A DNA stretch of 27,281 bases, taken from positions 1-27,281 of the IMG/VR virus record IMGVR_UViG_3300021370_000045. One strand, given 5' to 3'. Shown piece by piece: positions 1,540 through 25,587 of this stretch (positions within the stretch are counted from its first letter, which is position 1; the number at the start of each line of letters is the position of its first letter). Position numbers and translations under genes: made by a program. Below the pieces are notes generated by a model. That model did not search any database. It was given only the letters and a program-made list of their open reading frames with translations, and was not told the origin of the DNA. This stretch comes from a virus.

Positions 1540-1568
1540 TTGACAAATGCTTAATTATTTGGTATAAT
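1540..1568 (+). promoter_or_regulatory. Perfect consensus sigma-70 promoter
   Basis: The -35 box TTGACA (1540-1545) and the -10 box TATAAT (1563-1568) are both exact consensus and are separated by exactly 17 bases. It lies in the 41-base gap after the helicase gene. The expected transcription start is near 1574-1576, inside the following reading frame. It should be read by the unmodified host RNA polymerase and would give strong expression of the SSB gene at 1972 and the nuclease genes beyond it. Confidence 0.85.
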
Positions 1569-1569
1569 A

Positions 1570-1968: not shown

Positions 1969-1971
1969 AAC

Positions 1972-3560: not shown

Positions 3561-5328
3561 TTGTTTTAGCTACGGAGAGGGTAATGAGCTAGTTCTTGAC
3601 GATAATACGGTAACACAGATTATCGGCACTAACGGGGTGGGGAAATCCTCCATCCCGTTAATTATAGAAGAAGCTTTATACAACAAAAACTCCAAAGGAA
3701 TAAAGAAAGCAGACATCCCTAATAGGTATATAGATAAAGGGTATAACATTAAGTTAGAATTTTCGAAAGGAAACGACAATTTTTCTGTAGAAGTAACTAG
3801 AAAGGCCGCTGTAAAAGTAGTTTTAAAAAAGAACGGAGAGGATATATCTAGCCATACAGCGACTAACACGTACAAATCTATACAGGGTATTATTGGTGTC
3901 GACTTTAAAACGTTTTCACAGTTAGTCTACCAGAATACTAATGCTAGTCTTCAGTTTCTTACTGCGACTGACTCTAATAGAAAGAAATTTTTAATAGACT
4001 TATTGCGTCTTGAAAAGTACGTTGAGTTATTCGAAATATTTAAAGACGCATCAAAAGAGGCCAGTACGATGGTTTCTTCTGCCAAAACAGAAATTGCGAC
4101 TATCAACTCTTGGCTGACAGATAATAAATTGAAGGATACCAATGTACAACCTCTCATAAAAACAGAAATTAACACGGAAGTAGATGAGAAAGAGCTAAGT
4201 AAACTAACGGTAGAGCTTGAAAATATTTCTGAAAAAAATACTCAAATCGCAAAAAATAACGATTTGATAAAAACTTTGCAAACTTTAGATTTAAGCAGGG
4301 CACAAGAGACCTGTAGTCTGCCTATTAAATGTACCAAAGAACAGTGGAAAACTTTGTATGGCTATTTAGGACAAATAGAAGCAGCCGAACAAGCTCTAGA
4401 AAAACTCTCTAAGTTAGGAAATATTTGCCCTACGTGTACGCAAGATATTGATACAGCCCGGCATACAAGCCTTTGTGATGATCGCTTACAGCTTATAACC
4501 AGCTTAAGTGCCAAAGTCACAGAACTTAAAGAAGAGGTCAACGAAATAGACAGGTACAATAACGAAATAGTTGTAGCTAAACAAGCTGAGCAAAAGTGGA
4601 CAGATACCTTTCGCTCTATTAACAGATCGCTGCCTTCGTCCATAGTAGACCCTGAAGAGCTGCGCGAGAATATAAGTGAGTTGTGTGTTGTTTTAAAAGA
4701 AAAGCGCGGTAGAATTAAGGACATTAACTCGGAAAACCAAGAAATAGCAAAAAGAAATACCCGTATTCAAGTTATACAAGAGCAAACCCAAGAGTTTATT
4801 ACTAAGCTAGGAGAAGCAACTAAAAAGTTAAGTAAGTATGCGGACAAAGATGCAGATTTAGAAGTATTGAAGAAAGCTTTTAGCACAAACGGGCTAGTAG
4901 CTTATAAGATAGAAAATTTAGTTGTAGAGTTAGAAGAAGTAGCAAATAAGTACCTAGCAGAGTTATCTGACGGAAGATTTACTTTAGGTTTTAATGTACA
5001 AAAAGATAAATTAAATGTTGCCATTACTGACAACGGAAACCCTATAGACATTCTTGCTTTATCGTCGGGCGAGTTAGCGAGAGTTAATACGGCTACTCTT
5101 ATTGCAATAAGAAAGCTGATGAGTAGTATATCGAAATCAAAAATCAATATACTATTTTTAGATGAAGTAATCAATGTACTTGATGATGTTGGTAGAGAAA
5201 AGATGGTCGAACTGCTAATTAAAGAAGAAGAACTGAACACTTATATTGTATCACACGGGTGGACACATCCCCTGCTAGATAAAATAGAGGTTGTCAAAGA
5301 AACAAATGTGAGTAGGCTAGAATGGTAG
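3529..5328 (+). CDS. SbcC / T4 gp46-like ATPase subunit (Rad50 type)
   Basis: A 599-residue SMC-like ATPase that partners the SbcD-like nuclease. The Walker A GTNGVGKSS lies at residues 33-41, a zinc-hook CPTC at 300-303 at the tip of a coiled coil, the ABC signature LSSGELARVN near 510-520, and the Walker B ILFLDEV near 541-547, with a His switch region further on (YIVSHGW). It is short for a bacterial SbcC (about 1,050) but close to T4 gp46 (560), with short coiled-coil arms on each side of the hook. The start overlaps the sbcD-like gene by 32 bases and has AGGAA seven bases before the ATG. A split nuclease-ATPase pair in this order is standard in phages and bacteria. Confidence 0.93.
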   Translation: MITLQKLSWNNCFSYGEGNELVLDDNTVTQIIGTNGVGKSSIPLIIEEALYNKNSKGIKKADIPNRYIDKGYNIKLEFSKGNDNFSVEVTRKAAVKVVLKKNGEDISSHTATNTYKSIQGIIGVDFKTFSQLVYQNTNASLQFLTATDSNRKKFLIDLLRLEKYVELFEIFKDASKEASTMVSSAKTEIATINSWLTDNKLKDTNVQPLIKTEINTEVDEKELSKLTVELENISEKNTQIAKNNDLIKTLQTLDLSRAQETCSLPIKCTKEQWKTLYGYLGQIEAAEQALEKLSKLGNICPTCTQDIDTARHTSLCDDRLQLITSLSAKVTELKEEVNEIDRYNNEIVVAKQAEQKWTDTFRSINRSLPSSIVDPEELRENISELCVVLKEKRGRIKDINSENQEIAKRNTRIQVIQEQTQEFITKLGEATKKLSKYADKDADLEVLKKAFSTNGLVAYKIENLVVELEEVANKYLAELSDGRFTLGFNVQKDKLNVAITDNGNPIDILALSSGELARVNTATLIAIRKLMSSISKSKINILFLDEVINVLDDVGREKMVELLIKEEELNTYIVSHGWTHPLLDKIEVVKETNVSRLEW

Positions 5329-5780
5329 ATTCAAGAGCAAAAGGTGCAAGAGGCGAGTACTTAGTACGAGATATGCTAAGAGAACACACAGGGCATAAGT
5401 TTGAACGAGTACCCGCTTCTGGAGCATTAGAATATTTAAAGGGAGACCTTTATGTCCCTAGAGAAGCAAATAAGTATTGTATCGAAGTAAAAAATTACGC
5501 AGAATCTCCTCTTACGGATAAGATTTTTACGCAAGAAAAGACTAATAATCTTATTAGGTGGTGGAAAAAGGTGCAGCAACAAGCAAAAGGCGGAGACCAA
5601 GAGCCCATGCTGTTTTTTAAGTATAATCGATCCAAAATCTTTGTTGTAGTAGATACAAAGCCCCAAGACACAAGATATATACATATAGATTGGCTAGGTT
5701 GCTACGTTATGTTAGCAGAAGAATGGATAGTTCAGGAACCTATAGAGTTTTTACATGAGACGAACATTATTAAGAAGTAA
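5322..5780 (+). CDS. Hjc-like Holliday junction resolvase / PD-(D/E)XK nuclease
   Basis: A 152-residue protein with the restriction-endonuclease fold signature in the archaeal Hjc arrangement: SRAKGARGE with E12, a basic PASGAL stretch (31-36), GD42 and E55-V-K57. These supply the metal-binding E...D...ExK set. Hjc-type enzymes cut four-way junctions; here that would resolve recombination intermediates and branched concatemers before packaging. The gene overlaps the SbcC-like stop by seven bases and lies directly before a flap nuclease. The motif match is good, but other PD-(D/E)XK phage nucleases share this layout, so junction specificity is inferred. Confidence 0.82.
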   Translation: MVDSRAKGARGEYLVRDMLREHTGHKFERVPASGALEYLKGDLYVPREANKYCIEVKNYAESPLTDKIFTQEKTNNLIRWWKKVQQQAKGGDQEPMLFFKYNRSKIFVVVDTKPQDTRYIHIDWLGCYVMLAEEWIVQEPIEFLHETNIIKK

Positions 5781-5811
5781 CCAAGTTAGACAACTAAATA
5801 AGAGACGAAAT

Positions 5812-6651
5812 ATGGCTTTTAGTTTTATAAATAAATTAACCAAAGATCAGGGCAGTACTTTAATAGTAGATGCCTTAAACCTTGCTTTTAGATGGAAGCA
5901 TAGAGGCTCTACAACTTTTGTGGAAGAATACCTTGCAACAGTAGAGTCTTTTGCCCAATCTTATGGCTGTGAGAAGATCATAATTACAGCAGATAAAGGG
6001 TCTTCCTTTTATCGAAAAAACATAGCACCAGACTACAAGCAGAACCGAAAAGATAAATACGCAGAGCAAACCGAGGAAGAGGCAGAACAGTTCAGGTTAT
6101 TCTTCTTAGAGTACGAAAAAACTCTGGCAGCCCTAGAAAATAAGTACGCAGTGCTTAGGTATGAGGGAGTAGAGGCAGATGATATAGCGGCACACTTAGT
6201 AAAGTTTAAAACTAGCTATGGCTTAGATAAAATCTGGCTAATCTCAAGTGACCGAGATTGGGACTTGCTTATAGATACAAACGTATCCCGGTTTTCTTAT
6301 GTTACTAGAAAAGAGGTAACTGTTGCCAACTGGTCTGACCACTACAACGTATCTAGAGAAAACTACATTTCTCTAAAGTGTCTACAAGGCGATAAAGGTG
6401 ATAACGTTCCTGGCATTACTGGAATAGGCCCAAAACGAGCCAAAGACCTTATAGACCAGTTTGGTTCTGCAATGGATATTTATGATGCAACTCCCATTAG
6501 TGGTTCTTACAAGTATATTGAGGCACTTAACCAAAATGCAGATCAAATACTAAAAAACTACGAGCTAATGGATTTAATAACATATTGTGATGAAGCAATA
6601 GGGGTCGACAATATAGTTGACATAGAGGAGAAGTTACTTAGTGAACATTAA
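5812..6651 (+). CDS. 5' nuclease / flap endonuclease (T5 D15, T4 RNase H-like)
   Basis: A FEN-family 5'-3' exonuclease and flap endonuclease that removes RNA primers and 5' flaps. Acidic metal ligands appear in order: D20 (IVDALN), D61 (TADKG), the EADD block (121-124), SDRDWD (146-151) and GDKGDN (193-198). The helix-hairpin-helix GITGIGPKRA follows at 201-210. A longer frame opens at 5755, but its extra 19 residues are basic and unlike the family, and they overlap the resolvase gene. The ATG at 5812 has AGAG upstream and gives 279 residues, close to T5 D15 (291), so I prefer it. The stop overlaps the NrdA start by 11 bases. Confidence 0.9.
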   Translation: MAFSFINKLTKDQGSTLIVDALNLAFRWKHRGSTTFVEEYLATVESFAQSYGCEKIIITADKGSSFYRKNIAPDYKQNRKDKYAEQTEEEAEQFRLFFLEYEKTLAALENKYAVLRYEGVEADDIAAHLVKFKTSYGLDKIWLISSDRDWDLLIDTNVSRFSYVTRKEVTVANWSDHYNVSRENYISLKCLQGDKGDNVPGITGIGPKRAKDLIDQFGSAMDIYDATPISGSYKYIEALNQNADQILKNYELMDLITYCDEAIGVDNIVDIEEKLLSEH

Positions 6652-8416
6652 AATTGACTATAATAGAGATAAGTATTTATCTGAGTTTAGTATAAAAACT
6701 TTAGAAGATAGGTATTTACTAGAGGGGGAAACGTCTCCTCAAGATGCGTTTGCTCGGGCAGCAAAGGCTTTCGCAGATGACGAAGCCCACGCACAAAGAC
6801 TGTATGACTATGCTAGTCAGCTATGGTTTATGTTTAGTACCCCTATCCTTACGAATGGAGGGAGTAAACGAGGCCTTCCTATTAGTTGCTTTCTGAACTA
6901 TGTTGAAGATAGTCGGGAAGGTCTAACGGATCACTATACGGAGAATGCTTATTTAAGCTCAGTGGGCGGGGGCATAGGAGGAGGCTGGAGTGCTGTTCGA
7001 AGTGTAGGTAGTAAAACCTCAGCGGGGTCAGAGAGTACTGGAGTGATCCCTTTTATTAAAGTAGTTGACGCAGAGATGCTTGCCTTTTCGCAAGGCGTAA
7101 CCAGGAGAGGAAGTTATGCAGGGTACTTGGACATTAGTCACCCAGAGATCGAGGAGTTTCTTGATATTCGTAAGCCAACTGGAGGTGATGTTAATAGAAA
7201 ATCTACTAATGTTCATCACGCTGTTGGGATTGGCGACGATTTCATGAAATTGATCGAGCAGGCCACACTTGTGGAAGGCTTCGATGATAGCTGGGATTTA
7301 ATAGACCCTCATTCTCAACAAGCAACAAAAGCAGTTTCCGCTAAAACTCTTTGGGTGAAGATACTGCAGAATAGGGTAGAAACAGGTGAGCCGTACATTT
7401 TTTGGAAAGATACTGTTCAGAACGCTTTACCCGACTTTCAGAAAGACTTAGGTTTAAAGGTACACCACTCTAATCTATGCTCTGAAATTACTCTTGCAAC
7501 GAACGAAAAGCGTACTGCAGTTTGTTGTCTTTCGAGCGTCAATCTGGAAGAGTATGACTCTTGGAGCGACAATGACCAGTTTATTCCTGATTTAGTACGA
7601 ATGTTAGATAACGTGTTGGACTACTTTATAGAAAATGCGCCTAAACAGCTTTCCAAAGCTATTTACAGTGCTATGAGAGAACGAAGTATTGGACTTGGTG
7701 CTATGGGGTTTCATGCGTACTTACAGAGACAAGACCTATCTTTTGAAAGTATGTGGGCTTCTAGTATGAACCATAAAATGTTTGGTAGAATAAAATCGGA
7801 GGCAGTACGTGCAACAAAACAACTCGCAAAAGAACGAGGCGAATGCCCGGATGGAAAAGGTTATGGAGTACGGAACGCCCATCTTCTTGCCGTTGCTCCT
7901 AATGCCAGTAGTAGTATTATTTGCGGCAATACTTCCCCTAGTATTGAGCCTTATAGGGCTAATGCCTTTACTCAAAAAACTAAGTCAGGGTCTAGTCTGC
8001 TTAAAAACGAGTATTTGGAACACGCTTTGCAAGAGCTGGGTATGGATACAGATGAAGTTTGGAAAAGCATAACCACAAAGGGAGGCTCAGTACAGCATCT
8101 AGACTTTTTAGATGAGCATACTAAAGACGTATTTAAGACAGGCGTGGAGATTGAGCCAAAATGGTTAATTCAACACGCAGCAGATAGACAACAGTATATT
8201 TGCCAAAGCCAGTCTTTAAATCTATTTTTCCCTGCAAACGTTTCTAAGCAAGAGCTACACGCTATTCATATGATGGCTTGGAAAAAAGGAGTAAAAACAT
8301 TGTACTACTTGAGAAGTGAAGCAATGAAACGAGCCGAGAACGTATCCGATGAAGTTCTACGAGCATATATAGTCGATAGTTTAGACGAAAGCAGCTGTTT
8401 AGCGTGTGAGGGTTAG
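6641..8416 (+). CDS. nrdA: Ribonucleotide reductase class I, large subunit NrdA
   Basis: Reduces ribonucleoside diphosphates to deoxy forms, with radical transfer from NrdB. Key residues are visible: C83 (LPISCFLN) and C295 (AVCCLSS) as the redox pair, N278-x-C280-x-E282 (NLCSE) as the active-site set, Y555-Y556 (TLYYLRS) for radical transfer, and a C-terminal CLAC (586-589) that re-reduces the active site. The start is GTG at 6641 with AGAGGAG ten bases upstream. At 591 residues it is much shorter than E. coli NrdA (761). The N-terminal ATP-cone that mediates dATP shut-off is missing, so the enzyme probably escapes overall feedback inhibition. Its gene sits between the flap nuclease and nrdB, touching both. 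Confidence 0.95.
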   Translation: MNIKIDYNRDKYLSEFSIKTLEDRYLLEGETSPQDAFARAAKAFADDEAHAQRLYDYASQLWFMFSTPILTNGGSKRGLPISCFLNYVEDSREGLTDHYTENAYLSSVGGGIGGGWSAVRSVGSKTSAGSESTGVIPFIKVVDAEMLAFSQGVTRRGSYAGYLDISHPEIEEFLDIRKPTGGDVNRKSTNVHHAVGIGDDFMKLIEQATLVEGFDDSWDLIDPHSQQATKAVSAKTLWVKILQNRVETGEPYIFWKDTVQNALPDFQKDLGLKVHHSNLCSEITLATNEKRTAVCCLSSVNLEEYDSWSDNDQFIPDLVRMLDNVLDYFIENAPKQLSKAIYSAMRERSIGLGAMGFHAYLQRQDLSFESMWASSMNHKMFGRIKSEAVRATKQLAKERGECPDGKGYGVRNAHLLAVAPNASSSIICGNTSPSIEPYRANAFTQKTKSGSSLLKNEYLEHALQELGMDTDEVWKSITTKGGSVQHLDFLDEHTKDVFKTGVEIEPKWLIQHAADRQQYICQSQSLNLFFPANVSKQELHAIHMMAWKKGVKTLYYLRSEAMKRAENVSDEVLRAYIVDSLDESSCLACEG

Positions 8417-8417
8417 T

Positions 8418-9380
8418 ATGAGTAATTTATTAGAAGAAAGAGAGTATTATAAGCCGTTTAATTATCCGTGGGCTTTTGAGCACTATAAAGCCCAGCAGCA
8501 TATGCACTGGCTTCCAGACGAAGTAAATTTGGCTGACGACTTAAAAGACTTTCGAGAAAAATTAAGTCCTGGGAACAAGCAGTTGCTTACTCAGATATTT
8601 AGGTTCTTTACGCAAGCAGATGTAGATGTCTGCTGTGGGTATGCAAAGCATTACTTGCCTACGTTCAAACAGCCTGAAGTACGAATGATGCTAAGTGCTT
8701 TTGCAGCAATGGAAGCAGTGCATCAAGAGGCGTATTCTCTACTACTGGAAACTCTAGGGTTTCCAGAAGAAGAATACCAAGAGTTCATGAAGCACAAAGC
8801 AATGATGGATAAGCATGAGTACCTTAGCGATTTTGGAATGGGTACTCCTATGGATATTGCCAAAACTATGGCAATATACTCAGGCTTTACAGAAGGAGTG
8901 CAGTTATTTAGTAGTTTTGCGATACTATTGAACTTTCCTCGGCATAATCTAATGAAGGGAATGGGGCAGATTGTTACTTGGTCTATCCGAGACGAGAGCC
9001 TCCATGTTGAAGGAATGTCACAACTTTTCCGTACCTTTATTCAAGAAAATCCAGAGTTGTGGAATGATGCACTGAAGTACGAAATATATTGTGCAGCCGA
9101 AAGAACAGTAGAATTGGAAGATGCTTTTATTGACTTGTGTTTTTCTGGGTCAGATGTACCCGACCTTACTGCTTTAGAAGTTAAGGAATATATTCGTTAT
9201 ATTGCAGATCGAAGGTTGTTAGGTCTAGGGCTGAAAAAGATTTTTGGAAGTGTTGAAAATCCTCTACCTTGGCTTGATTATATGTTAAATGCGGTAGAGC
9301 ACGCGAATTTCTTTGAAAATCGTGCTACTGAATATTCACGCGCTAGTACTACAGGTAACTGGCAAGATATTTTTAAATAG
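8418..9380 (+). CDS. nrdB: Ribonucleotide reductase class I, small subunit NrdB
   Basis: The di-iron radical subunit that partners NrdA. Ligands and the radical site are present: D68 or D70 (TQADVDV), E99 and H102 with radical Tyr106 (EAVHQEAY, the same spacing as E. coli E115-H118-Y122), a second-helix Glu (FTEGVQLF) and E-x-x-H in RDESLHVEG. The tyrosine indicates a tyrosyl-radical enzyme, not the Phe-substituted class Ic. The frame opens at a GTG at 8406, but the ATG at 8418, with GAGGG five bases before it and one base after the nrdA stop, is the better start, giving 320 residues. No glutaredoxin or thioredoxin gene is seen nearby, so reducing power probably comes from the host or from genes outside the window. 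Confidence 0.95.
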   Translation: MSNLLEEREYYKPFNYPWAFEHYKAQQHMHWLPDEVNLADDLKDFREKLSPGNKQLLTQIFRFFTQADVDVCCGYAKHYLPTFKQPEVRMMLSAFAAMEAVHQEAYSLLLETLGFPEEEYQEFMKHKAMMDKHEYLSDFGMGTPMDIAKTMAIYSGFTEGVQLFSSFAILLNFPRHNLMKGMGQIVTWSIRDESLHVEGMSQLFRTFIQENPELWNDALKYEIYCAAERTVELEDAFIDLCFSGSDVPDLTALEVKEYIRYIADRRLLGLGLKKIFGSVENPLPWLDYMLNAVEHANFFENRATEYSRASTTGNWQDIFK

Positions 9381-9388
9381 AGGAAATT

Positions 9389-9634
9389 ATGGCAGAAGCT
9401 AAAGAAAATACCTTTACATTAGATGGAATAACTCATTCCATAGATACATTGGATGACCAAGGTAAGTTTTTAATAGGACAGTTAAATAGTCTTAATCAAG
9501 ATAAAACCGCTATATTGGGCAAGTTAGATATTATAAATACTGCCGAGATGGGGTATATAGATAAACTTCGGGACATCTTGCTTCAAGAGGAGAAAGAAGA
9601 GCCTCTTGTAGGGGAAGTTCTTACAGAGTCTTAA
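9389..9634 (+). CDS. Small phage protein of unknown function, 81 aa
   Basis: A short acidic protein starting FTLDGITHSIDTLDDQGK and continuing as one long predicted helix (residues about 24-66) before an acidic tail. The pattern recalls short phage proteins with a TxDGxxYxxxDLS start and a helical rest (in memory the DUF6447 type, unchecked). It has a strong AGAGGAAATT ribosome site eight bases after nrdB and is the last gene of the plus-strand unit, just before the terminator. The function is unknown. A helical dimer or a structural accessory role is possible, but nothing in the sequence decides it. Confidence 0.75.
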   Translation: MAEAKENTFTLDGITHSIDTLDDQGKFLIGQLNSLNQDKTAILGKLDIINTAEMGYIDKLRDILLQEEKEEPLVGEVLTES

Positions 9635-9679: not shown

Positions 9680-12600
9680 CTACTGGCCTTGATCTGAAGG
9701 TAAAGGCAAAGCTTTATAGTCTTGAGGAAGTAAAGTAGTTTCTCCGTTTGATAAAAGAGTATAGAAAGAATCAGAGTGTTCCTTCAAAAGCAAGCCCACA
9801 TTTCCATCCTTTTTAAGACTCATGCTATTTATTCTAAACTCTTTCTTATCCCAACGAAACCTCGGGTAAGATATTGTTACTATTTGCCCTGGAACAAGTA
9901 ATATTCCTTCAGGCCCTAAGGTAAGCTGAGCATCTAAGCTATATCGAGAGCTGTCTAAGGCTTGTCTAACATTTATTCTTGCATTAAAGTAATTAGTTAT
10001 TGAAGCGGAATTCCAAGTCCCTTCTTTTACTACAAAGTTATCTTGTTTTAAATACACTGAGTTTATAAAAGTAATATCTCGCGCGTCAAACAGTGTTATA
10101 GGGTCAGCAACTTTTGCAGATATTGAGTTAAACGAGTTTTTTGCTCCTTTATCTGTAATATCTATTGTTCCTATAATATTATCTTCTGTAATATGGGAGG
10201 GAGTGTACAGCGTGCCCTTTAACGAACGAACAACCTCCTCGGGATAAGCGGTAGTTTCTACTGTTAGCGCATATTTCCCCCCAGAGTAGGTAAGAATTCC
10301 ATTAAACTGTTCCAACATGTAATTAACATTATCAAATATAGAGTTACCTGTATCGAGTCTTGTGTTATTTTGATGCCTAGTAACACTAGTCTGCTCTTGA
10401 GAGTCCCAGCCTACCATAGGCCATGCTTTTATACTATCACAGTCGTACAAAGAGTACCCACTCGCGGTGAAAGCTCCTTCATTAGAGTTCCAACTTTTAA
10501 CTAGAGGGTTTCCGTCGTTGGATACTTTTCCTGAGTTTACTCCCGAGGAATTAATAAAAAATCTTATGCCTTGACTATAGCTCTCGTTGTTAGGATTGTA
10601 TCCATAGTAATGTAGTTGCTGGCCGCCGCTGATAGTCTGGTCATATGAAAGTCGCGCTATTTCTCTTATCCCCTCGACACCTGCGGTTGGGTTGACATAT
10701 ACAAAAGATCCGTCTGCTGCCGGGTGTACGGTTTCTTTAAAGTCAGCATAGGTAGGAGCAAATTCGGTAGCCGTATCCCCTTCTTCAAACTGAACAGCAG
10801 CATAGTATATTACCGGGGCGCCTGTGTACGAGGTAGTCCACACACTAAAATTCCACTCAGTGCTGTCAGGGTAAGCGCTAGAAGGTATATCAAAGGTGAA
10901 CACAAGACGTACCCACTGGGCATTTGGTATCGTACCTGTGGGGCTAATAAGGCTTCCGTTTACGTAGGCACTATTAGCAATACTAGCAGCGCTGCGTAGT
11001 TTGCCGGTAAACACAGGTACACTCGACCCCGCAGTAACCCAAACGTATACGGAGGCGGTATACTTTTTATTTTTTTCAACCTGCAAATTGTAGGACGAAA
11101 AACTAGGGCTGAAAAAGACATAAGAAAGTTGCTCGGAATTCTCGTTTACGGTTCTGAGCGATGTCGGAGTCAAAAAAGAGAAATCACTTTGACTGCTAGT
11201 CATCGAGGCGCGAACCGCGAAGTCTGTATAAGCAAGGTCGGTGTGCTGAGCGTACGCCCCCATTAAATTCCGGCTTTCTATAGGCTGTTGTATCGACATA
11301 TATAGATTACTTACGCCAGTACCTCCAGCGCTAACAAAACTAGTAGAGTTACGTCCTACATCTACTACGGCAGTTTCGTTTACTATATAAGTACCTTCCG
11401 GAGTTGTAGAAAGACATTTTAAAATAACATCCCCTGTTCCAACAGGAAGACCTCCGTCAGCCTCTGTTGCAGAATAACTTCCTATATCGCCTTCTTCAAT
11501 TAAGTTATCAGAACCACCAAATGCCGAATATACTGCTACTCCTTTATGGTACACATAGTTATCTGTGTGTTGCGAAAAATCTCTCCACTTTCTACCCAGC
11601 TTTCCGGCAATCTTCGAAAACTCTATCTCATAGTACTCAGACCCTTCGTAAATTCTAGAGGTTACTTTTGCAACCGTTCCGCTGAATACGGTCTTATTCG
11701 GAGCAGTCCCGAAAGGAGGGTTATAAATTATATTAAACTTTTCTCCTGCTGTTGGCCTTTTTTGTATTAAAGAACCTATATACCTTTTGACCACAAGAGA
11801 TACGGTGCTTTGCGCGTCACATAATTTAGCGGCGGATTTAAAAGAGTCCAAGTCTATTTGTGTATCTAAATCTAAACTTTTTCCGTATATAGGGTTTGTT
11901 AAGTAGTCTAACAACTGCATTGCAGGGTTAGTACTTACTCTAAGATCGGCAGTTTCCCCTCTATATAGTTTGTATCTAGTAGCATAGTTGAAATCAAAAG
12001 AATAATTATCTAAAATAGCATACGGCCCTACAATATTCCGTTCTAAAACCTTAGCACTAAATAGCTTATTGTTTGCTTGACGAAAAGAAATTATTTCGTC
12101 CCCTCCGACGTTAGGCAGTTGACTTGGGTCAAGTCCGATAACATTCTTGTGAAAAAGTTGCATATCAGTAGTGCTATTTAAAATTTCCTTTTGAGATACA
12201 GGAGAAGACGAAGGGCTCACTAGAGCTAAACAAGAGTTGGCCTCGAAAGAAAGCGTCGCAGTTCCGCTCGTGGGGGCCGTTTCTATGACCTCAGTAGTAC
12301 CCGCAGTAGCATCCTGTAAGTATATATACTGTCCATCAGGTGTAGGGCCAGCCCCAGTTCCCGTGGTTTCCCCGGAGGCTATCGCATAAAATGTCCCATT
12401 GAAAGCACTATTAGAGGTGCAAGTTACAAACACCCGATTCTTGCCTCCGCTTCTACTGAAATACCTATATGCCTCTTCGCCCACGTATATTAGACTGCCT
12501 TGGTAAGGGTGGTTTAGTGTGAGAGCTAAGTCTAATTGAATATTTGGAGGAGTTATTTTGTACGCATAGGTAAAATCTCGCTCCCAGCCCTCTTGAGTTA

Positions 12601-15600
12601 GCTGAGTTATGTCGTCTAGGCACACTACTGGCTCTGCGGAGTCGTCGGACTCTCCTAGTTTTTTGATATACATAACTTTATCTTGCTCATCTAGGTTCAT
12701 AGAAGCCTTAGTGTGGAAGACGGAACTAAACTCCTGCAAGTTCGGAGTAGCGCTCCCATCTCCAGTATAGCTAGGCGTCTCCCCAGTAGCCTGTCCGCTG
12801 CTATTAAAGGCCACGGTATAAAGCCTAGTAGGGAGTATAGCAGTGGTCGCATTCTGGTGAGCAGAGTTTGTAAACGTAGACAGAAGTAATTCTGACGGTA
12901 ATCCGTAGTTTTGTCCTTCCGCCTTCAAATCTATGCTACCATATGAAAATTTTGATACTACCGCTGTCGGCCCAGAATTTGCAACATATGTGGTAGAGTC
13001 AAGGGCTGGATACAAAGAATCCGTGCCTAGAGTCACCGTGTAAGTGTTATAAATATTATTAACTACAATGCTATCAGAGCCTTCAGAGGGAATAGGATTT
13101 TCAAAAGCTATTCTCTCCAATATAGTTCCGTCCATAGCTCTCTGTGTATATATCTTAGAGATGGTTGCTTCAGTCGTACCGCCTTCTGGAGAGAAGTCTA
13201 TATGTCTAACCCCTGAGTACCCTCTATAGCCATGTATGTTACTTCCTCCTACATATAGGCCAGGGTCTCCGTAGTAGTCTAACAACTGCGCGGCCCCTTT
13301 ATATCTAACATTAGGCATGCCGCAATCGTAAGTATTACGATAGCCTATAGTATCGTCTTGAGTAGAGCCTATAGCATTACGAATTCGTAAAAAAGGATTA
13401 ATATCTGGCCAAACCTCCGCTTTAGAGCCTTGGGGTATATCCTGTGCAAGGGCGGGGGCAAACTCCGCTGCTTGGAGTAACCCAACAACACAATTACGTG
13501 CAGCCCCTGCAATATTTAACGGCGCATCGGTATATATAAGAAGATTACCGGTAAGGCCTATCTCAGACAAAACTATTCGGGGGTATACAGGTTTTAGAGC
13601 CCCTAAAGGTGTCTCTGTATAGTTACCATAGTCCGGGGCTTGCCCATTTCCGGTTGGATTAGTTAGTTTAATATAGAGGTCGGCGCTGTTGAAGCCCAAC
13701 GCCGTTTCGCTTCCAGGCACTACGGTGCCGGCAGGAAACCAGTATAAGGTATTTGGAATTTCAAAAGTACCTGAAGGAACGCTATAAAGCTGAGTGCTAG
13801 ATTCAATAGTAAAAACATTTCCATTAGTAATGTTGGTAACCGTTACAAGGGCTGAAATAGTTCGGTCTTCACTATAAGCTACGCCAAAAAAAGGTGTGGT
13901 AGTCGGAAAAGCGCTAGCGTCTGACACTGTAAAACCGTTGTTGCTGCCTGAGCTATATTCGCTGAAAGCCCCCGCGCCTAGGGCGTTATTTAGTACTCCT
14001 ACTGTAGTCGTATAAGTAGAACGAGGACTCATATCTTGTATTACATGCTTGGTCCCTCCATTTAAAAAATACATTCCGATAGAAATATCGTCCACCCCTG
14101 AGCCAAACCAGCTAGTACTGGTAATGGTTTGGGTACCGGTGTTAAAAGTATCGTTCCCTTGAAACCGTCCCTGAGTGAACATTCTTCGCGGGAAACACAA
14201 AGGCGTGATGTGCCCTCGCGTAGTCGTCTGGTTAGTTAAACTAGTCCAGTTTGACTTTGCCAATACCATAGGCGCTCCAGTAGTATAACTACTGGGGAAA
14301 TTGAACTTTTTCAGCCCATATCTGTACTGCCAAGATAATGTATCAATACTTGAAGTTATCGAGCCTCCAGAAGTTTTAGCAACAAGCGCAGAATTTGCGT
14401 AGTTTTCTTTCGGAGTAGAAAATACGTCTGGCTGACCATATGGTCCTGCATTAGGAACGTTTGTTTGATATAAGAACCCTCCAGAAATAGCAAAAGATCC
14501 ACCCCAAAAATGGTTTTGAGCTTCTGAGTCAAGAGTCTCCACTCTTCCCTCCCTGTTAAAAGACAAAACTCCCGTATAATCAGAGTCTGCCGGATATGTG
14601 GGTGCTTGGTCGTTTGTTACAAATTCTGCAATATTTAAGTAAGAAGTGCTATTATTATCACTAAAACCTGCTTGAGAGGCGGGAGCAAGACCCAACCTAA
14701 GTGCTTTAGACGTATCAGAAGCATACCTAGAAAAAGTTACGAGTACTGGGTGGTTTGCAGTGTTTGCAGTTTCTTTTCCAGGAACAAAGTCTAATCCTTG
14801 GTAAAACTGGTCAAAATGATTATTCCCTAGGGGGTCATACTTTGCGAATTCTCGATCAAATCTATCTTCAAAAGGGGTGTTTATATCCAGTCTATCTCTG
14901 CTAGCAAGCGTATACCTTACGACGTCTGCAGTGTGCTTAGCTTCTCCTTTTGTAGTGTACTTCCTCTGCCAGTCTACTAGTAACTTATCATATGTATCCC
15001 ATGTTAGAGTTCCCGTTGTAATAGCCTCATCAGTAAAATGTTGCAAAGCATATAGAAAGCTATCTTTTACAGCTATACCAACTGTTTTGCTAAAGGAAGA
15101 AATACATTCCTCTCCTCCTTTGTAGTCTGTTGCGGAATTTTTTAGCTTATAGTACAAAGGTATTTCTTTTGTCTTATCAAATCTTTTGTAGGTAGTATCA
15201 TATGCTATAGCCGTGTCCCATACTTCTGAATCTGCAGCAGTAACAAGTCGAGGAGATCCTACATAACCAGGTTCGGGGTATATAGTGCCGGGAAAAGGAG
15301 AGTAAGGCTCCCCCGAGTACCTTCGAGGAGGCTGAAAACTTACGTTAACCTCAGTAGTTCTTTGTCTTAGCATCCATAAAGTGTTATTATCATACGATAA
15401 GTCTGTTATATTATAGGCGTACCCATACCCCACATCATCTGAGCCAATCGGAAGATCCGAGTCCTCTGCGTGTAAGTTAAGGCTTAAGTCTTGGAAAAAG
15501 AGAGTAAGCGTCGAATCTTTAGTACCTATACCAGAACTCAGAGTGACGGTTCTGGTCGCAGAATCATAAGATTCGACTGTTATTTTCACAGAGCCATAGA

Positions 15601-18600
15601 AATTATTAGTAGCAGGAGTATAGTAGAAGAGTTTGGAGGCTGCGGCTGTGTCATATACTCTAGCAGTAGTATTATCTACATATACTAAATCTCCGGGGGC
15701 CGGAGTATAGCTAGAGCCAGAAGGTAAAATGTACTGTAACCCATCAGTTGTAGGAATTGATGTAGGGGTGCACACAAGAGATATTGCACTTTTATCTATA
15801 TTGTACCCCAGTAAGTTTATATCTTTTTCTATTACTCTATTGCCGTCCATATCGAACGCATATATCATACCATTTCCTGCTACTGTAGGATAGGGCTCCC
15901 CTTCGTAGCAGTTTGTTAGATGTCTTCTGTGGTCAGCAGTATCAGAGTTAAAATACACCGGGTTAGCGACCCATATTGTAGTACCATCAGTTGCAACGGA
16001 CGCATTTTTTCGGATGGTAGAGAATACATCAAAGTCTTCCTGAGAAAAGTTAAAAGTTTCAACAGTTACTGAGGTGCTTGCACTTGGTTTAGCCTCAAAA
16101 GTATCGGAGTAACAAGGAATATTTGAATCTAGAGACCTAGAAATTAACTTACGGGGCACTACGGTCTCATCTGTTCCAGCAGAAACTGTATTTAAGTCTT
16201 GTAAGTCAAAAATAGCCACATAAGCTTCAAAAACGCCAAGGCCGGAGCAAGGGTAGTATACGTATAATTCACTTGCAGACCCCGAAATTCCCTTAGGCTC
16301 TACTGGAATTTGGTCCTTTCCGTACATAGTAAAGTAGGCGTTTGTATAAGGATCATTGCCGTTGGCAATAGTAAATCTTCTTATAGTTCCAGAGCCGGAA
16401 AGCTCCCTTCCTACCGTATATAAATATTGACCATCCATAGAAACCCATATATCTTCTACAGTATAAGGAATATGGAAAGTTTCTGCCTCTCTTTGGTTAG
16501 TTTCAGTATTTAAAGTATAAATATCTACTCCGCCAGAAGAAGTCTTATTAGCTAAGCATAGAACTTTATTGCTCTTTTTGAAGTAACAAGATACTGCTAC
16601 AATATTATCAAGTAATACAGTGTTTCCTGCCGTCTCTAAAGTCACGATATCTCCTGCCGCAAAACCTACAAAATCACCCGCATTACCAATAACTGTAAAA
16701 GAGTTGTCATAGTTATGACAGTCTATAAATTTGCCCTTTACTACTAGTTCCGGATCCTCTAAATTCTCAAGACTTCCTGTTTGCGCAGGTGCTTGAAAAA
16801 CGTTTAGAATGTATGCGGTGTCTCTAAGGGTATGTTGAGGCCCCCAATACTCCTCAGGGTCCCCCTTAAAGTACATATCCTGTATAGTAAACCCAGCACT
16901 CGCAGTACCAGCTACCTCGGTGCAGGATTGAAGATCTACCGGAAAACTATAGTCATAGTTCGAGTACCAAAACTCTTGGTACTCTAGCACAGAAATCTCC
17001 TGCGCGTCGATAGCGGCAATAGCTGAGAGAGGAATAGGGGTTACTCCAAGATACCTAGTAATTAGATTATGCCAATGAGCGCTAACGGTTACAGCCTCTA
17101 CCCGTATCTTATTGGAGTCTCCCCCAGGGTTTCGTAATATAACTTTAAAGACCATTCCTTTGCTAAAAGTCGAAGTAACTAGATACTCTCGCCCTGTTTT
17201 AAAATTAGTTATAGTATTAGTATTACTAACCGTAATATCAAATGTTTCGCTAGGAATATATGCTGCAGCTATTGCAGCAGGAGCATAGTTTGCCACTTGT
17301 TTTTCTAGCCCGGTATGAAGAACTAGGGCTTTTTCAACCTCAGTATTAAAAAGCTTAATACTTCTTAGGTGTCCAAAGTAGGCCCCGGCCTGCGGGGTTG
17401 AAGGGGTTGTAACAGCATTTATTTTGTCGAGGCCAAGAAAATTAGTGCCGCTTACGGTGTAACTATCCGCAGCGTCTATAGCCCAGGGAGTAATAGAGCT
17501 ATAGTTTCTAACAAAAAAAGTTTGACCGCTAACATATGAGATAGGATTAGTAAGGCTAAGGTTATTACTCGTGTTTTGGTAAACTTCAGTACCTTCTTCC
17601 ACTCCAACACCATATAGAGTAGCCCCCACGTCAATGCCCGTGCTGCTAACAACTGATAGCGTTCTAGTATTATTGCCCGTAGTATCCGCCACCACCGCAA
17701 CGCCGGGGTACACCGTAGTATCATAGAAAGCAGTAGGAGAAATAAGTATGTCTCCTTGATCTAGTCTACCTGTTCCAGTGCCCGCGGCCGCTCTATCGGC
17801 AAAGTCCGCATAATCTAAGCACAGCTGAGAAGTGTCTCCATCTATAATATTTAAAATTCCGGAGATAGGCCCTTCAGATATTGTTGCAGCTTTTACTAAG
17901 ACGGGTCGGTAATCAGGATCGCTCACGGTTCCTTCTAGCAAATCGCAAAAAATTGTATTAACAGCAGTTCTTTGAACTCCGTAAATTACTGGCAAGTACT
18001 CTGAGGTTAAATTAAACTCTATTTTTTGAGTCTTTTCTACATCGACATAATAAGTTTTTATTGATACTTTTTTGCCCGACCATTTCTTCTTTTTCTTTAT
18101 ACGAGTTCTTTGCTCTGTTGTCATATAAGGAGCATTTATATTATATGCAGCTTCTGCGTGCATAAACCCTAAATCTGTGGAGTACTCTACGCTTTTTATC
18201 GGAGTAGAATTTTTTAACTGCTCCACTTCTAAAACTCGCCTAGACGAATCTAACCCTCTACGCCCTCGTACTTGTACAAAATCACCCCAGTGTGACGTTA
18301 ATGTCCAGGTCATAGAAGAGGCCTGATAGGGGTCTTCCTTTAGTTTACCTCCAGCTATTATACCTTTAAAAATTAAAAAAGGGCTTCCTATTAGGTCGCC
18401 TGTAGAGGGGTCAAATAGCGCCCGGTAGATATCTACATTTTTATTTATGTAGCTAGTAAAAGAGGCGGCGTCGGTGCTGTCTAAAAATATAGAGACTTCT
18501 TTGTTTGATAAAGTAAGAGTGTACTCTACAAAAGTTTCAACGTCTGTTAATAGAGTGCCTTGCGTAAAGGATACTATAGCTTTAGTTTCCGAAAGAAGAT

Positions 18601-19075
18601 CGTCTAATATGAAAGTTTGATTACTATTTTGCGCAGGAGTAGAAGAAGTAATTAAAATTCTATCCCCCTTTTTAAACCCCATATCTATAAAAGATTTAGT
18701 ACTAGTAACGGTTCCTTCATAAAAAGATAAGGAAGCGGTTTCTTGAGTTCCCAAAGTTCCTGAGTTAAGTTTCAAAGTGCAAGACCCTGCCCTAGCTTCA
18801 GAACTTTCACTTATATCAGAAATACTCTTTATAGTATTTGCAACATACGTTTGAGGACCAAAACTATTACCATATTTATTTACTTGGTTATCATCAAATA
18901 CAATATCGAAGGCTCCATCGGTAAGATGCGTAAAAGACGGTTGACGTTCCCCCGCGCCTTGATTAGGTAATTCGAATTTTACTAAGTGGCAAAAGCTGTG
19001 CTCTGTTTTATCTAATAAAACGGAATAAATTTCTTCGTTGTTTGCAGTGTTTGCAGTTAAGTCTCTGTAAGCCAT
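9680..19075 (-). CDS. Giant central tail hub / tip attachment protein (lambda gpJ-like, 3131 aa)
   Basis: This protein forms the tail tip hub and probably carries receptor-binding parts. The first 420 or so residues resemble the start of gpJ-type hubs (YLPVIYGVQRTAVN near 358). NPAMQLLDYLTNPIYG near 2382, followed by a Cys-Asp helix near 2420, matches the gpJ block around its RYGMG motif. The last 200 residues match the gpJ block that ends in a PGxxVxIxYPxFxWxKKxFRI turn. Between them lie about 1,700 residues (about 430-2130) with repeated short strands such as YLYTVG, TIWVAN, GMIYAFDMDG and LWMLRQR, suggesting beta-propeller blades, and a further insert of about 490 residues holding a jelly-roll/CBM-like domain (about 2600-2780, ending in QFEEGDTATEFAPT). 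The start has GAGGAGG ten bases upstream and overlaps the previous stop by one base. No C-terminal fibre follows the hub. Confidence 0.85.
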   Translation of the reverse strand: MAYRDLTANTANNEEIYSVLLDKTEHSFCHLVKFELPNQGAGERQPSFTHLTDGAFDIVFDDNQVNKYGNSFGPQTYVANTIKSISDISESSEARAGSCTLKLNSGTLGTQETASLSFYEGTVTSTKSFIDMGFKKGDRILITSSTPAQNSNQTFILDDLLSETKAIVSFTQGTLLTDVETFVEYTLTLSNKEVSIFLDSTDAASFTSYINKNVDIYRALFDPSTGDLIGSPFLIFKGIIAGGKLKEDPYQASSMTWTLTSHWGDFVQVRGRRGLDSSRRVLEVEQLKNSTPIKSVEYSTDLGFMHAEAAYNINAPYMTTEQRTRIKKKKKWSGKKVSIKTYYVDVEKTQKIEFNLTSEYLPVIYGVQRTAVNTIFCDLLEGTVSDPDYRPVLVKAATISEGPISGILNIIDGDTSQLCLDYADFADRAAAGTGTGRLDQGDILISPTAFYDTTVYPGVAVVADTTGNNTRTLSVVSSTGIDVGATLYGVGVEEGTEVYQNTSNNLSLTNPISYVSGQTFFVRNYSSITPWAIDAADSYTVSGTNFLGLDKINAVTTPSTPQAGAYFGHLRSIKLFNTEVEKALVLHTGLEKQVANYAPAAIAAAYIPSETFDITVSNTNTITNFKTGREYLVTSTFSKGMVFKVILRNPGGDSNKIRVEAVTVSAHWHNLITRYLGVTPIPLSAIAAIDAQEISVLEYQEFWYSNYDYSFPVDLQSCTEVAGTASAGFTIQDMYFKGDPEEYWGPQHTLRDTAYILNVFQAPAQTGSLENLEDPELVVKGKFIDCHNYDNSFTVIGNAGDFVGFAAGDIVTLETAGNTVLLDNIVAVSCYFKKSNKVLCLANKTSSGGVDIYTLNTETNQREAETFHIPYTVEDIWVSMDGQYLYTVGRELSGSGTIRRFTIANGNDPYTNAYFTMYGKDQIPVEPKGISGSASELYVYYPCSGLGVFEAYVAIFDLQDLNTVSAGTDETVVPRKLISRSLDSNIPCYSDTFEAKPSASTSVTVETFNFSQEDFDVFSTIRKNASVATDGTTIWVANPVYFNSDTADHRRHLTNCYEGEPYPTVAGNGMIYAFDMDGNRVIEKDINLLGYNIDKSAISLVCTPTSIPTTDGLQYILPSGSSYTPAPGDLVYVDNTTARVYDTAAASKLFYYTPATNNFYGSVKITVESYDSATRTVTLSSGIGTKDSTLTLFFQDLSLNLHAEDSDLPIGSDDVGYGYAYNITDLSYDNNTLWMLRQRTTEVNVSFQPPRRYSGEPYSPFPGTIYPEPGYVGSPRLVTAADSEVWDTAIAYDTTYKRFDKTKEIPLYYKLKNSATDYKGGEECISSFSKTVGIAVKDSFLYALQHFTDEAITTGTLTWDTYDKLLVDWQRKYTTKGEAKHTADVVRYTLASRDRLDINTPFEDRFDREFAKYDPLGNNHFDQFYQGLDFVPGKETANTANHPVLVTFSRYASDTSKALRLGLAPASQAGFSDNNSTSYLNIAEFVTNDQAPTYPADSDYTGVLSFNREGRVETLDSEAQNHFWGGSFAISGGFLYQTNVPNAGPYGQPDVFSTPKENYANSALVAKTSGGSITSSIDTLSWQYRYGLKKFNFPSSYTTGAPMVLAKSNWTSLTNQTTTRGHITPLCFPRRMFTQGRFQGNDTFNTGTQTITSTSWFGSGVDDISIGMYFLNGGTKHVIQDMSPRSTYTTTVGVLNNALGAGAFSEYSSGSNNGFTVSDASAFPTTTPFFGVAYSEDRTISALVTVTNITNGNVFTIESSTQLYSVPSGTFEIPNTLYWFPAGTVVPGSETALGFNSADLYIKLTNPTGNGQAPDYGNYTETPLGALKPVYPRIVLSEIGLTGNLLIYTDAPLNIAGAARNCVVGLLQAAEFAPALAQDIPQGSKAEVWPDINPFLRIRNAIGSTQDDTIGYRNTYDCGMPNVRYKGAAQLLDYYGDPGLYVGGSNIHGYRGYSGVRHIDFSPEGGTTEATISKIYTQRAMDGTILERIAFENPIPSEGSDSIVVNNIYNTYTVTLGTDSLYPALDSTTYVANSGPTAVVSKFSYGSIDLKAEGQNYGLPSELLLSTFTNSAHQNATTAILPTRLYTVAFNSSGQATGETPSYTGDGSATPNLQEFSSVFHTKASMNLDEQDKVMYIKKLGESDDSAEPVVCLDDITQLTQEGWERDFTYAYKITPPNIQLDLALTLNHPYQGSLIYVGEEAYRYFSRSGGKNRVFVTCTSNSAFNGTFYAIASGETTGTGAGPTPDGQYIYLQDATAGTTEVIETAPTSGTATLSFEANSCLALVSPSSSPVSQKEILNSTTDMQLFHKNVIGLDPSQLPNVGGDEIISFRQANNKLFSAKVLERNIVGPYAILDNYSFDFNYATRYKLYRGETADLRVSTNPAMQLLDYLTNPIYGKSLDLDTQIDLDSFKSAAKLCDAQSTVSLVVKRYIGSLIQKRPTAGEKFNIIYNPPFGTAPNKTVFSGTVAKVTSRIYEGSEYYEIEFSKIAGKLGRKWRDFSQHTDNYVYHKGVAVYSAFGGSDNLIEEGDIGSYSATEADGGLPVGTGDVILKCLSTTPEGTYIVNETAVVDVGRNSTSFVSAGGTGVSNLYMSIQQPIESRNLMGAYAQHTDLAYTDFAVRASMTSSQSDFSFLTPTSLRTVNENSEQLSYVFFSPSFSSYNLQVEKNKKYTASVYVWVTAGSSVPVFTGKLRSAASIANSAYVNGSLISPTGTIPNAQWVRLVFTFDIPSSAYPDSTEWNFSVWTTSYTGAPVIYYAAVQFEEGDTATEFAPTYADFKETVHPAADGSFVYVNPTAGVEGIREIARLSYDQTISGGQQLHYYGYNPNNESYSQGIRFFINSSGVNSGKVSNDGNPLVKSWNSNEGAFTASGYSLYDCDSIKAWPMVGWDSQEQTSVTRHQNNTRLDTGNSIFDNVNYMLEQFNGILTYSGGKYALTVETTAYPEEVVRSLKGTLYTPSHITEDNIIGTIDITDKGAKNSFNSISAKVADPITLFDARDITFINSVYLKQDNFVVKEGTWNSASITNYFNARINVRQALDSSRYSLDAQLTLGPEGILLVPGQIVTISYPRFRWDKKEFRINSMSLKKDGNVGLLLKEHSDSFYTLLSNGETTLLPQDYKALPLPSDQGQ
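14753..14771. repeat. Copy 2 of an exact 19-base repeat
   Basis: GTTTGCAGTGTTTGCAGTT is identical to 19040-19058. Both copies lie in the hub gene and encode Thr-Ala-Asn-Thr-Ala-Asn in the same frame. Each copy is itself almost two units of a 9-base repeat. Confidence 0.7.
19040..19058. repeat. Copy 1 of an exact 19-base repeat
   Basis: It encodes residues about 7-12 of the tail hub. The same 19 bases recur at 14753-14771, about 1,430 codons further on in the same gene and the same frame. Confidence 0.7.
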
Positions 19076-23697: not shown

Positions 23698-24090
23698 TTA
23701 CTTTCTCTTTAGCTTATCTCGTTCCCGCTTCATCATTTCCGCGGACTCTTTAATAGCTCTTGAGTCTAGCCAAGATATAATCTCTAGCAGAAGCTCAATA
23801 TCGTCTACCCCCGATTGGTCTATATACAGAGGTAGAGCTGTATAGTCTTTTCCTAAGTACCCTATATCAATAACTACTCTGTCCCCTAGGACATTGAAGA
23901 TATTGATAGCTGTTCTTACAATTTCGGGCAAGTCTTCCCAAGAAACAGGAACTTTCTTTGGGTCAGGCTCTTGCCCTAATTGTTCGCAAATTTCAAAGTA
24001 TCTATCTGCGGTTATTTTTGATTGAGTAGACTTAAAAAAGCTTTCAAGCCTACGCCACAGTTCCTGTCTCTGTTCCTGTACGAAAATTAT
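23698..24090 (-). CDS. Tail assembly chaperone, T-type downstream frame (likely made only by frameshift)
   Basis: The frame is open from 24090 to the TAA at 23698-23700 (130 codons). No ATG occurs before a Met pair near the C-terminus. Only a TTG at 23931 could serve as an internal start, and the sequence upstream of it (with ICEQLGQEPDPKKVPVSWED) reads as normal protein. The frame overlaps the preceding G-type gene by 41 bases, in the +1 (equivalent to -2) frame. Lambda-type tails make gpG and a longer gpG-T by frameshifting, and the T part binds the tape measure protein, whose gene starts one base later here. A slip at TTT-C (24085-24082) would give a fusion of about 258 residues, near the size of lambda gpG-T. 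The frame relation is seen; the frameshift is inferred. Confidence 0.72.
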   Translation of the reverse strand: MIFVQEQRQELWRRLESFFKSTQSKITADRYFEICEQLGQEPDPKKVPVSWEDLPEIVRTAINIFNVLGDRVVIDIGYLGKDYTALPLYIDQSGVDDIELLLEIISWLDSRAIKESAEMMKRERDKLKRK

Positions 24091-24475
24091 CTAAATCAAA
24101 GACTACCTCGTTGAGCCATGTATCAAATTCAGAGGATTGACTTACTAGAATTTGAGCATTTTCATCGGAGTACTCTACTTCTTGTGACATATCTTTATTG
24201 TTAGTGTCTATAAGTAGTAAAGTTTCTAAATGCTCTAGCGTTAAGCCTTTCCAGTTTTTAATGGTACTCGCAGTGAAACATTCAACGAATTTCTCTTCGT
24301 CGAGCACTTCTTCCATCATTCGGGTTTTTCGATCTAACTTTTGAGTTACGCACTTCTTACGAAGTCCCTGTAGCTCTTTTCGAGAAAGGTTGACTACCTC
24401 TACCGAAAATCCTGGCAGACCTGCAAAGTCTACCCATGCTGATTTACTATCTATAATTAAGTTCTTTAATTGCAT
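24050..24475 (-). CDS. Tail assembly chaperone, G-type, 141 aa
   Basis: An acidic helical protein between the tail tube and the tape measure, matching lambda gpG in place and length (140). It holds VDFAGLPGFSVEVVNLSRKE near the N-terminus, a basic KKCVTQKLDRKTR patch, then EEKFVECFTASTIKNWKGLT and a helix ending EHLETLLLI. This W-K-G-L-T pattern is common in phage tail chaperones, where the domain modifies 'residual' activity around the tube subunits. A perfect AAGGAGG site lies six bases before the ATG and overlaps the tube gene's stop. The C-terminus is a short, Gly/Thr-rich end (FRTGTETGTVA) lying in the overlap with the second frame, where a frameshift would occur. Confidence 0.75.
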   Translation of the reverse strand: MQLKNLIIDSKSAWVDFAGLPGFSVEVVNLSRKELQGLRKKCVTQKLDRKTRMMEEVLDEEKFVECFTASTIKNWKGLTLEHLETLLLIDTNNKDMSQEVEYSDENAQILVSQSSEFDTWLNEVVFDLDNFRTGTETGTVA

Positions 24476-24486: not shown

Positions 24487-25587
24487 TTAGGCGGTTGTGT
24501 ACGTCAAATATGACGCGATTGATAAACTGTTGGAGTCAAGCCTCCAGTCTAGGCTCATTGTCATTATAGGGCCTACCGACACTCTTGACGTTCCTTTTAC
24601 AGGCCCTCTAAAACTTATTCCTAGGCCGCTAACGGACGATCTAAAGTTCGCGGCAAATAAATTACTTACATAGCCACTAACATTACCTGCCGCGGCCTCT
24701 GAATTTATAATTTTTTGATCCCAAGCATTAGGACCGACCGCGTTAATATTGGTGTTTGCGTCTTCGTGCCCTGTGAACACGCTGGCCTCTTCATTGCTAA
24801 TAAATATGGTGGCGCTTCCGGATACATTTCTTTTTGTTACGTAAAATGTTTCTGGATACTGTAAGTTATACGCTTGCATGCCTTCCAAGGCTGCAGCCGT
24901 ACCCTGGATTGTAGTATAAGGAAGCCAGGAAACCGTATTCTGTAGCTCTAAAGAAGAGCTCTGTAATAGGCCTTCATGTTTTTCATAGCCGGTAATCCCT
25001 ACTGAGGCGGATTCTAACGGTAAAAATGTACGAGTACCGGAGCGAGCTACAATATCTGTAGTACCGAACGTAGGAATTCCTGACGTATCTGTGCTAAATA
25101 AAGTACTAATGTTACCGTTAGGGTCTAGTATGCTTTGCGTTTGCAACGAATTTTGCCACGTATAGAGCCGAGACCCTTGCCCCTCCAAGGCAATGGATAT
25201 GGGTACATTTTTATTTGCGGAAGTACTAAGAGAGGTGAATACGCACTTCTTTATTACATATGCTTTTGTATCTACTATAAAGAATAAATTAAAAGTATCT
25301 AGAGTATTGTTACTATTTAAACTTACAGCAAGGTTCCAAATAGGAACAAAATCGGGTTCTTTTAGTAAAGGAAGAGTAAACGAAAAATTAGCTACACTTG
25401 CTTTTGTTATCTGCCCCTTGTCTACGTATTTTTCAGGCTCATGAATAGATCTTTCTGAGTAAGTTTTCTCTGTAAAAGATTGAGAGAAGCTTACCCCTTC
25501 AGGGGTTATATCTAATTTATACGTGGCAGTACCCCCAGTAGGCTGGAGGTATACTTTGGCATTCTCTAAAAACTGGAAAAGATCCAT
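24487..25587 (-). CDS. Major tail tube protein, two tandem domains, 366 aa
   Basis: Forms the tube of the tail. It is beta-rich, with no cysteine-rich or membrane segments. Residues about 8-150 form a first tube-like domain (QITKASVANFSFTLPLLKEP and ALEGQGSRLYTW). Residues about 185-366 form a second (VSGSATIFISNEEA, then ISFRGPVKGTSRVSVGPIM and MSLDWRLDS). A two-domain subunit would assemble as trimeric rings, as known for T5 pb6, while the one-domain lambda gpV forms hexamers. The placement just ahead of the G/T chaperones and the tape measure supports it. A GAGG site lies five bases before the ATG, and the gene has its own promoter. The fold is inferred from pattern and position. Confidence 0.7.
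   Translation of the reverse strand: MDLFQFLENAKVYLQPTGGTATYKLDITPEGVSFSQSFTEKTYSERSIHEPEKYVDKGQITKASVANFSFTLPLLKEPDFVPIWNLAVSLNSNNTLDTFNLFFIVDTKAYVIKKCVFTSLSTSANKNVPISIALEGQGSRLYTWQNSLQTQSILDPNGNISTLFSTDTSGIPTFGTTDIVARSGTRTFLPLESASVGITGYEKHEGLLQSSSLELQNTVSWLPYTTIQGTAAALEGMQAYNLQYPETFYVTKRNVSGSATIFISNEEASVFTGHEDANTNINAVGPNAWDQKIINSEAAAGNVSGYVSNLFAANFRSSVSGLGISFRGPVKGTSRVSVGPIMTMSLDWRLDSNSLSIASYLTYTTA

Follow-up and report, generated by a model that had tools for sequence, protein, structure and literature searches.

The tail assembly chaperone of T5-like phages is very probably completed by a conserved +1 programmed frameshift at UUU_CGN, by which gene G would be joined to a second, overlapping frame (T) to yield a G-T fusion. 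The locus was analyzed in a window—that is, the whole stretch of DNA under study, a 27.3-kb IMG/VR fragment—and in its relatives, and the claim rests on comparative data, without peptide, reporter, or ribosome-profiling data.

Frames, Overlap, and Start Codons

In the window, G terminates at a TAG codon (24052–24050), and the T frame, preceded by a TAG (24093–24091), is open for 130 codons from 24090 to a TAA at 23700–23698, with a G/T overlap of 41 nt and with T in the +1 (equivalently −2) frame relative to G (Table 1). A sequence-only reading of this DNA had described a tail chaperone pair in a +1/−2 relation with no start for the second frame; its coordinates (G end at 24050, T open from 24090, a 41-base overlap, and TTT-C at 24085–24082) are correct to the base. 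The pair itself is borne out by matches to PHROG 313 and 3914 and by the +1 relation in all 172 relatives described below, and the second frame is indeed startless: no ATG, GTG, or TTG occurs in the first 50 codons past the junction, the earliest of any of these lying 50 codons, and the earliest ATG 115 codons, past it (of ~130). The T frame is under protein-level constraint in the overlap, where amino acid identity is 0.49 in the T frame versus 0.35 in the G frame.

Table 1. Positions of the features at and around the chaperone locus of the window.
Feature	Position	Strand	Remarks
Tape measure protein, 1306 aa	19776..23696	−	directly downstream of T; PHROG 3779, E 3.4e-78
Predicted G-T fusion via +1 slippage, 258 aa	23698..24475	−	junction ...DLDNF|VQEQR...
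T frame, +1-frame extension, ~130 codons	24090..23698	−	PHROG 3914 'tail assembly chaperone', E 1.7e-21
Hairpin GUAGGCUUGAAAGCUUUUUUAAGUCUAC	24026..24053	−	~30 nt downstream of shift site; z −1.98
Gene G, zero-frame tail assembly chaperone, 141 aa	24475..24050	−	PHROG 313 'Tail assembly chaperone', E 8.7e-17
Putative shift site UUU_CGU	24080..24085	−	UUU 24085–24083 (P site), CGU 24082–24080 (A site)
GAGGTA, Shine-Dalgarno-like element	24104..24109	−	19 nt between GAGGT and UUU
366-aa protein upstream of G	24487..25587	−	position of T5.144-type tail protein; gene order only

Gene Order and Relationship to T5

The counterparts of G and T in T5 are T5.143 and T5.142, respectively. With the 258-aa conceptual fusion as a tblastn query, collinear G plus T were found in 893 phage records (coverage of at least 80% in 888), and among the matches listed at that coverage the counterpart of the fusion is split into two pieces. 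Nearly all matched phage records whose taxonomy was examined belong to the Demerecviridae, at <60% amino acid identity; the window belongs to a separate marine clade, with <60% amino acid identity to any isolate. Furthermore, the gene order around G/T and the tape measure gene is the same in T5 and its relatives. For Demerecviridae (T5-like), of which formal membership is judged on whole genomes, the window satisfies one criterion, namely a homologous chaperone, gene order, and tail genes, and it also satisfies the criteria for a G/GT chaperone—that is, G homology (PHROG), a neighboring tape measure gene, and a startless overlapping second frame. On these homologies, the window can be placed among the marine relatives of T5.

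Other searches were negative: a PHROG search with the 366-aa protein upstream of G gave no match, the tail region of this 27-kb fragment had zero matches to phage records at the DNA level, a plasmid search gave no match, and Pfam and NCBIfam gave none above the cut-off (with Pfam TAC_5 below it only). A Foldseek comparison of an AlphaFold model of G (mean pLDDT 77) with the PDB likewise returned no significant match.

Outside the chaperone locus, an ORF of 3131 aa (9680–19075, minus strand) lies downstream of the distal tail protein; it has weak PHROG matches in the middle and near the C-terminus only, and probably encodes a giant tail tip or fiber protein. At 239–9634 (plus strand), a replication block of opposite direction converges on the tail operon and contains, as recognized by eye, a helicase, a gp46/gp47-like nuclease pair, a 5′-3′ exonuclease, and class I ribonucleotide reductase subunits. 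A chaperone locus of the window's clade (T5-like) was also binned in a Halieaceae metagenome-assembled genome (MAG), MED611 (contig NZIJ01000053.1), which either points weakly to the host group or reflects a binning artifact.

Conservation of UUU_CGN

Scans of viral contigs together with isolate records provided 287 usable loci, 172 with T in +1 and 115 with T in −1. Because some contigs were counted twice under different locus ids, tests were run on a non-redundant set of 154 rows at <90% identity, comprising 92 (+1) and 62 (−1) loci.

An in-frame TTTCG is present inside the overlap in all 172 of the +1 loci (CGT in 144, CGA in 16, and CGC in 12), and occurs nowhere in the part of these G genes that precedes the junction (19,648 codons). 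The comparison of relatives that had been proposed as a check on the overlap frame and TTT-C thus found both conserved throughout (172/172); missed in that earlier reading were the CG after UUU, which is equally invariant, and the use of a −1 heptamer by close relatives. TTT CGT with T in +1 was also found in five further isolates (Erwinia KEY, Enterobacter KKP_3711, Pectobacterium DU_PP_V, Klebsiella Sugarland, and Salmonella PHZ191) and in the Halieaceae MAG contig; the site of T5 reads ACT TTT CGT AGC TCA AAA GCG TAA. Because the same frame and an in-frame TTTCG recur in every +1 relative, the frame relation is not due to chance, and a sequencing error, which would have refuted the proposal, is excluded because independent isolates and assemblies show the same arrangement.

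Codon usage at the site was compared with that of control columns. In the non-redundant +1 loci, the Phe codon of the site is TTT in 92 of 92 cases, never TTC, with 0 changes on the tree; at ten other conserved Phe columns of the same genes, 183 of 801 codons (23%) are TTC, with 8–21 changes each. The Arg codon is CGN in 92/92 loci and never AGR, compared with 3–22 CGN/AGR switches at control Arg columns, AGA being the commonest Arg codon in these genes. The codon preceding UUU is mostly AAY. By comparison with these columns, UUU_CGN is under selection at synonymous sites.

Place and Direction of the Inferred Shift

Between the T-frame stop and the G stop of My1 and D302 there are only 11 nt, around UUU CGU; the shift must fall there, and no re-pairing move other than UUU to UUC is possible within them. 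Furthermore, UUU_C is the only +1 re-pairing site present in all 92 loci, which supports the slip of tRNA-Phe from TTT-C onto UUC suggested beforehand.

The frame relation by itself permits +1 or −2, and the sequence-only reading had accordingly left room for slippage by −2 in the style of phage Mu, perhaps aided by repeated ACAG units. Some codon able to re-pair at −2 does exist in 61 of the 92 loci; the other 31 have no candidate, no −2 site is common to all, and the 11-nt stretches of My1 and D302 contain none. At the conserved UUU, moreover, a −2 move would place tRNA-Phe on ACU or AUU, and the overlap beyond CGT, where the ACAG units lie, is variable among relatives. Entry by −2 is scarcely credible on these grounds, and as a general mechanism it is excluded by the site comparison.

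Two other candidates were rejected. Tandem −1 slippage of the lambda type does not apply to the window, since T is in +1 there and in all 92 non-redundant +1 relatives. Transcriptional slippage was discarded for a site with only 3–4 Ts, a run too short for that process.

A Sister Clade With T in −1

All 115 loci with T in −1 carry an in-frame X_XXY_YYZ heptamer and none carries TTTCG, so that motif and frame covary. The heptamers are mostly G_GGA_AAC, and otherwise A_AAU_UUU or U_UUA_AAG, and the homologous point sits one codon earlier (...DLGN|L versus ...DLDNF|V). An AGGT is found ~9 nt upstream of the heptamer, a spacing resembling that of dnaX-like stimulators. In a tree of 33 proteins, the +1 and −1 states are parted by one change (branch support 99/98), with the ancestral state, +1 or −1, left undecided. 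That the sister clade makes the same fusion by −1 slippage at the homologous place is the best explanation of these data, the slippage itself being inferred. The direction of frameshifting thus appears, as far as aligned genes can tell, to have undergone a natural switch inside one chaperone family, and the same fusion via −1 in the sister clade makes this a clean case of such switching.

The sister clade also bears on the possibility that UUU_CGN is kept merely by the amino acid constraint of two frames (Phe-Arg in G and Phe-Val in T), with some other signal joining them. F is invariant and is followed by R in G, with V next in T at most loci, and a similar caution has been voiced for influenza PA-X (PMC3498833). 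Such dual coding cannot explain the missing TTC, because UUC_CGN would keep the Phe and Arg of G and remove only the UUU_C slip. Nor does it account for the homologous Phe of the −1 clade, which is followed by UCN, CAR, or other codons but never by CGN, or for the variation of the +1 codon (GTN, GAR, and GCN) while CG stays fixed. Amino acid constraint alone is therefore extremely improbable, and a frameshift signal remains the preferred reading of UUU_CGN.

Possible Stimulators and a Separate Start for T

Throughout the marine clade, GAGGTR is unchanged at −24 to −19 relative to the shift codon. Its Glu codon is GAG in 78/78 marine relatives, never GAA, with 0 changes, compared with 4–22 changes at other Glu columns, and the duplex of the element with the anti-Shine-Dalgarno sequence was calculated at −6.1 versus −1.2 kcal/mol for the control. 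The marine GAGGTR is thus predicted to pair with the anti-Shine-Dalgarno; however, its spacing is atypical and outside the known stimulatory ranges, and what it does in the +1 clade is unexplained. Downstream of the site, relatives fold heterogeneously, and no 3′ structure common to them was detected; the strong window hairpin is probably not a stimulator because it is not conserved in them.

GAGGTR also lies five bases before a T-frame TTG, as would suit a separate T protein started from its own codon, either within the overlap or shortly beyond it, and perhaps translationally coupled to G. This is how GenBank presents the gene: T is listed as its own CDS in all annotated relatives examined, with a start 23–34 codons past the junction in T5, My1, Achelous, Slocum, D302, Kp127, and PSTCR5, and 36 of the 92 relatives have some start codon with a Shine-Dalgarno-like 4-mer within 25 codons of the junction. 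In the window, however, that TTG is followed by ATT TAG, which blocks an internal TTG start of the marine type, and the next ATG, GTG, or TTG comes only at the 50-codon distance given above. The annotated starts would also drop 23–38 residues of a T frame that every +1 relative keeps open from the junction onward, and a separate start leaves unexplained both the invariance of TTT and CGN and the −1 position of T behind GGGAAAC in the sister clade. A separate T protein is very unlikely by this reckoning, and the G-T fusion is retained.

The consequence is one of annotation. In the records examined, T is annotated separately, in most cases starting 23–38 codons downstream of the junction (L226, that is, T5.142, together with L009, L010, L012, L014, L016, L225, and L292–L295). 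T5.142 is better regarded as the C-terminal portion of a T5.143-T5.142 fusion, and the annotation of several hundred deposited genomes would be corrected. T5 is a model phage, and a conserved signal accounts for the way in which it can produce its G-T fusion.

Proposed Mechanism

G and T would encode two forms of one tail assembly chaperone. The majority of ribosomes would read G through to its stop codon, and a minority would stall while peptidyl-tRNA-Phe occupies UUU in the P site and the A site presents CGU. The tRNA-Phe could then re-pair one base downstream on UUC, the better match to its GAA anticodon, after which GUA would be read as the next codon in the +1 frame to give the G-T fusion. 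By analogy with lambda gpG/gpGT, the fusion may coat the tape measure protein and recruit tail tube subunits, and the UUU_CGN site would be used in this way across the whole T5-like lineage. The occurrence of slippage, its efficiency, and the chaperone function are inferred.

A rare-codon model for CGU fits the window, where its frequency is 4.2 per 1000 and that of the +1 codon GUA is 31.4 per 1000, but fails for T5: in the T5 stretch examined, Arg is encoded most often by CGU (17.8 per 1000), which E. coli also uses frequently (20.2 per 1000; Table 1 of PMC3498833). Because CGU is common in T5 and E. coli, a slow A-site codon cannot account for a pause there. A broader proposal, held tentatively and with a little less than even confidence, is that UUU_CGN is a motif on which ribosomes in general slip +1 intrinsically, and that T5-like phages and eukaryotic RNA viruses arrived at it independently; CGN would then act via the A-site decoding complex (e.g., an inosine-34 tRNA-Arg or a C-G pair beside the P site), not through codon rarity, and the T5-like lineage and its sister would have swapped −1 and +1 with the same fusion kept. 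Why CGN follows UUU has been a puzzle since PA-X, and it can now be put to the test in E. coli, with its frequent CGU; the T5-like chaperones supply a forward-frameshift motif in a genetically tractable host.

Comparison With Known Systems

The lambda G/GT frameshift was reportedly described by Xu and colleagues in 2004. Frameshifting in chaperones of this type is mostly a −1 slip, in lambda and most others (reviewed in PMC5009743). The window resembles lambda in its two-ORF chaperone between the tail tube and tape measure genes, startless second frame, short overlap, and recoding near the end of G, but would slip +1 at UUU_CGN, unlike lambda, with the sister clade keeping −1. In the 2018 Sugarland genome paper, the chaperone was described as "similar to T5" and without a predicted frameshift signal (PMC6256483, citing Zivanovic et al., 2014); contrary to that, T5 and Sugarland both carry UUU_CGU with T in +1.

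Other phage systems share the frame or the direction of the shift. Phage Mu gpG/gpGT uses a −2 frameshift and ends in the same final frame as the window, but −2 re-pairing is impossible at the conserved site of the window type and in the shortest overlaps. The SPP1 tail tube protein gp17.1* (+1 at CCC_UAA) and Listeria phages provide cases of +1 frameshifting in a tail gene; gp17.1* differs from the window in concerning a tail tube gene and a proline codon before a stop. For the SPP1 chaperone 17.5*, a putative −1 shift at UUUUUUC has been given (PMC6316719). The G-T pair of the haloarchaeal virus HSTV-2, with a probable +1 shift (PMC5009743), is a +1 tail chaperone pair like that of the window and differs in its archaeal host.

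In bacteria, UUU_Ynn is reported to be prone to +1 shifting (PMC5009743), the UUU_Y cases being YopN-TyeA of Yersinia and an ICE of rhizobia (as cited in PMC5009743). These are similar in that tRNA-Phe slips +1 from UUU in bacteria, and differ in the genes concerned and, within the portion of that source available, in the absence of any report of CGN in the A site.

Reports of frameshifting at UUUCGU/UUUCGN were found for eukaryotic viruses and one vertebrate gene family, and for no phage, in a search that left out most subscription journals, so an earlier T5 report is possible; as far as could be checked, a UUU_CGN +1 frameshift in phages is apparently unreported before. In 2024, the PRFect authors stated that no general forward-frameshifting motif had been identified (PMC10885494). 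UUU_CGN is the +1 site of influenza PA-X, for which a junction peptide detected by mass spectrometry fixed site and direction and single-tRNA slippage from UUU to UUC is the favored model (PMC3498833), and it also directs the +1 frameshift of plant amalgaviruses (PMC5052127). The T5-like site is like these in its zero-frame UUU_CGN (UUU in the P site and CGN in the A site), +1 direction, predicted slip within an overlap, and lack of an obvious 3′ structure; it is unlike them in involving bacterial ribosomes and a DNA phage, in CGU being common in T5 and E. coli, and in a preceding codon that is mostly AAY, not UCC.
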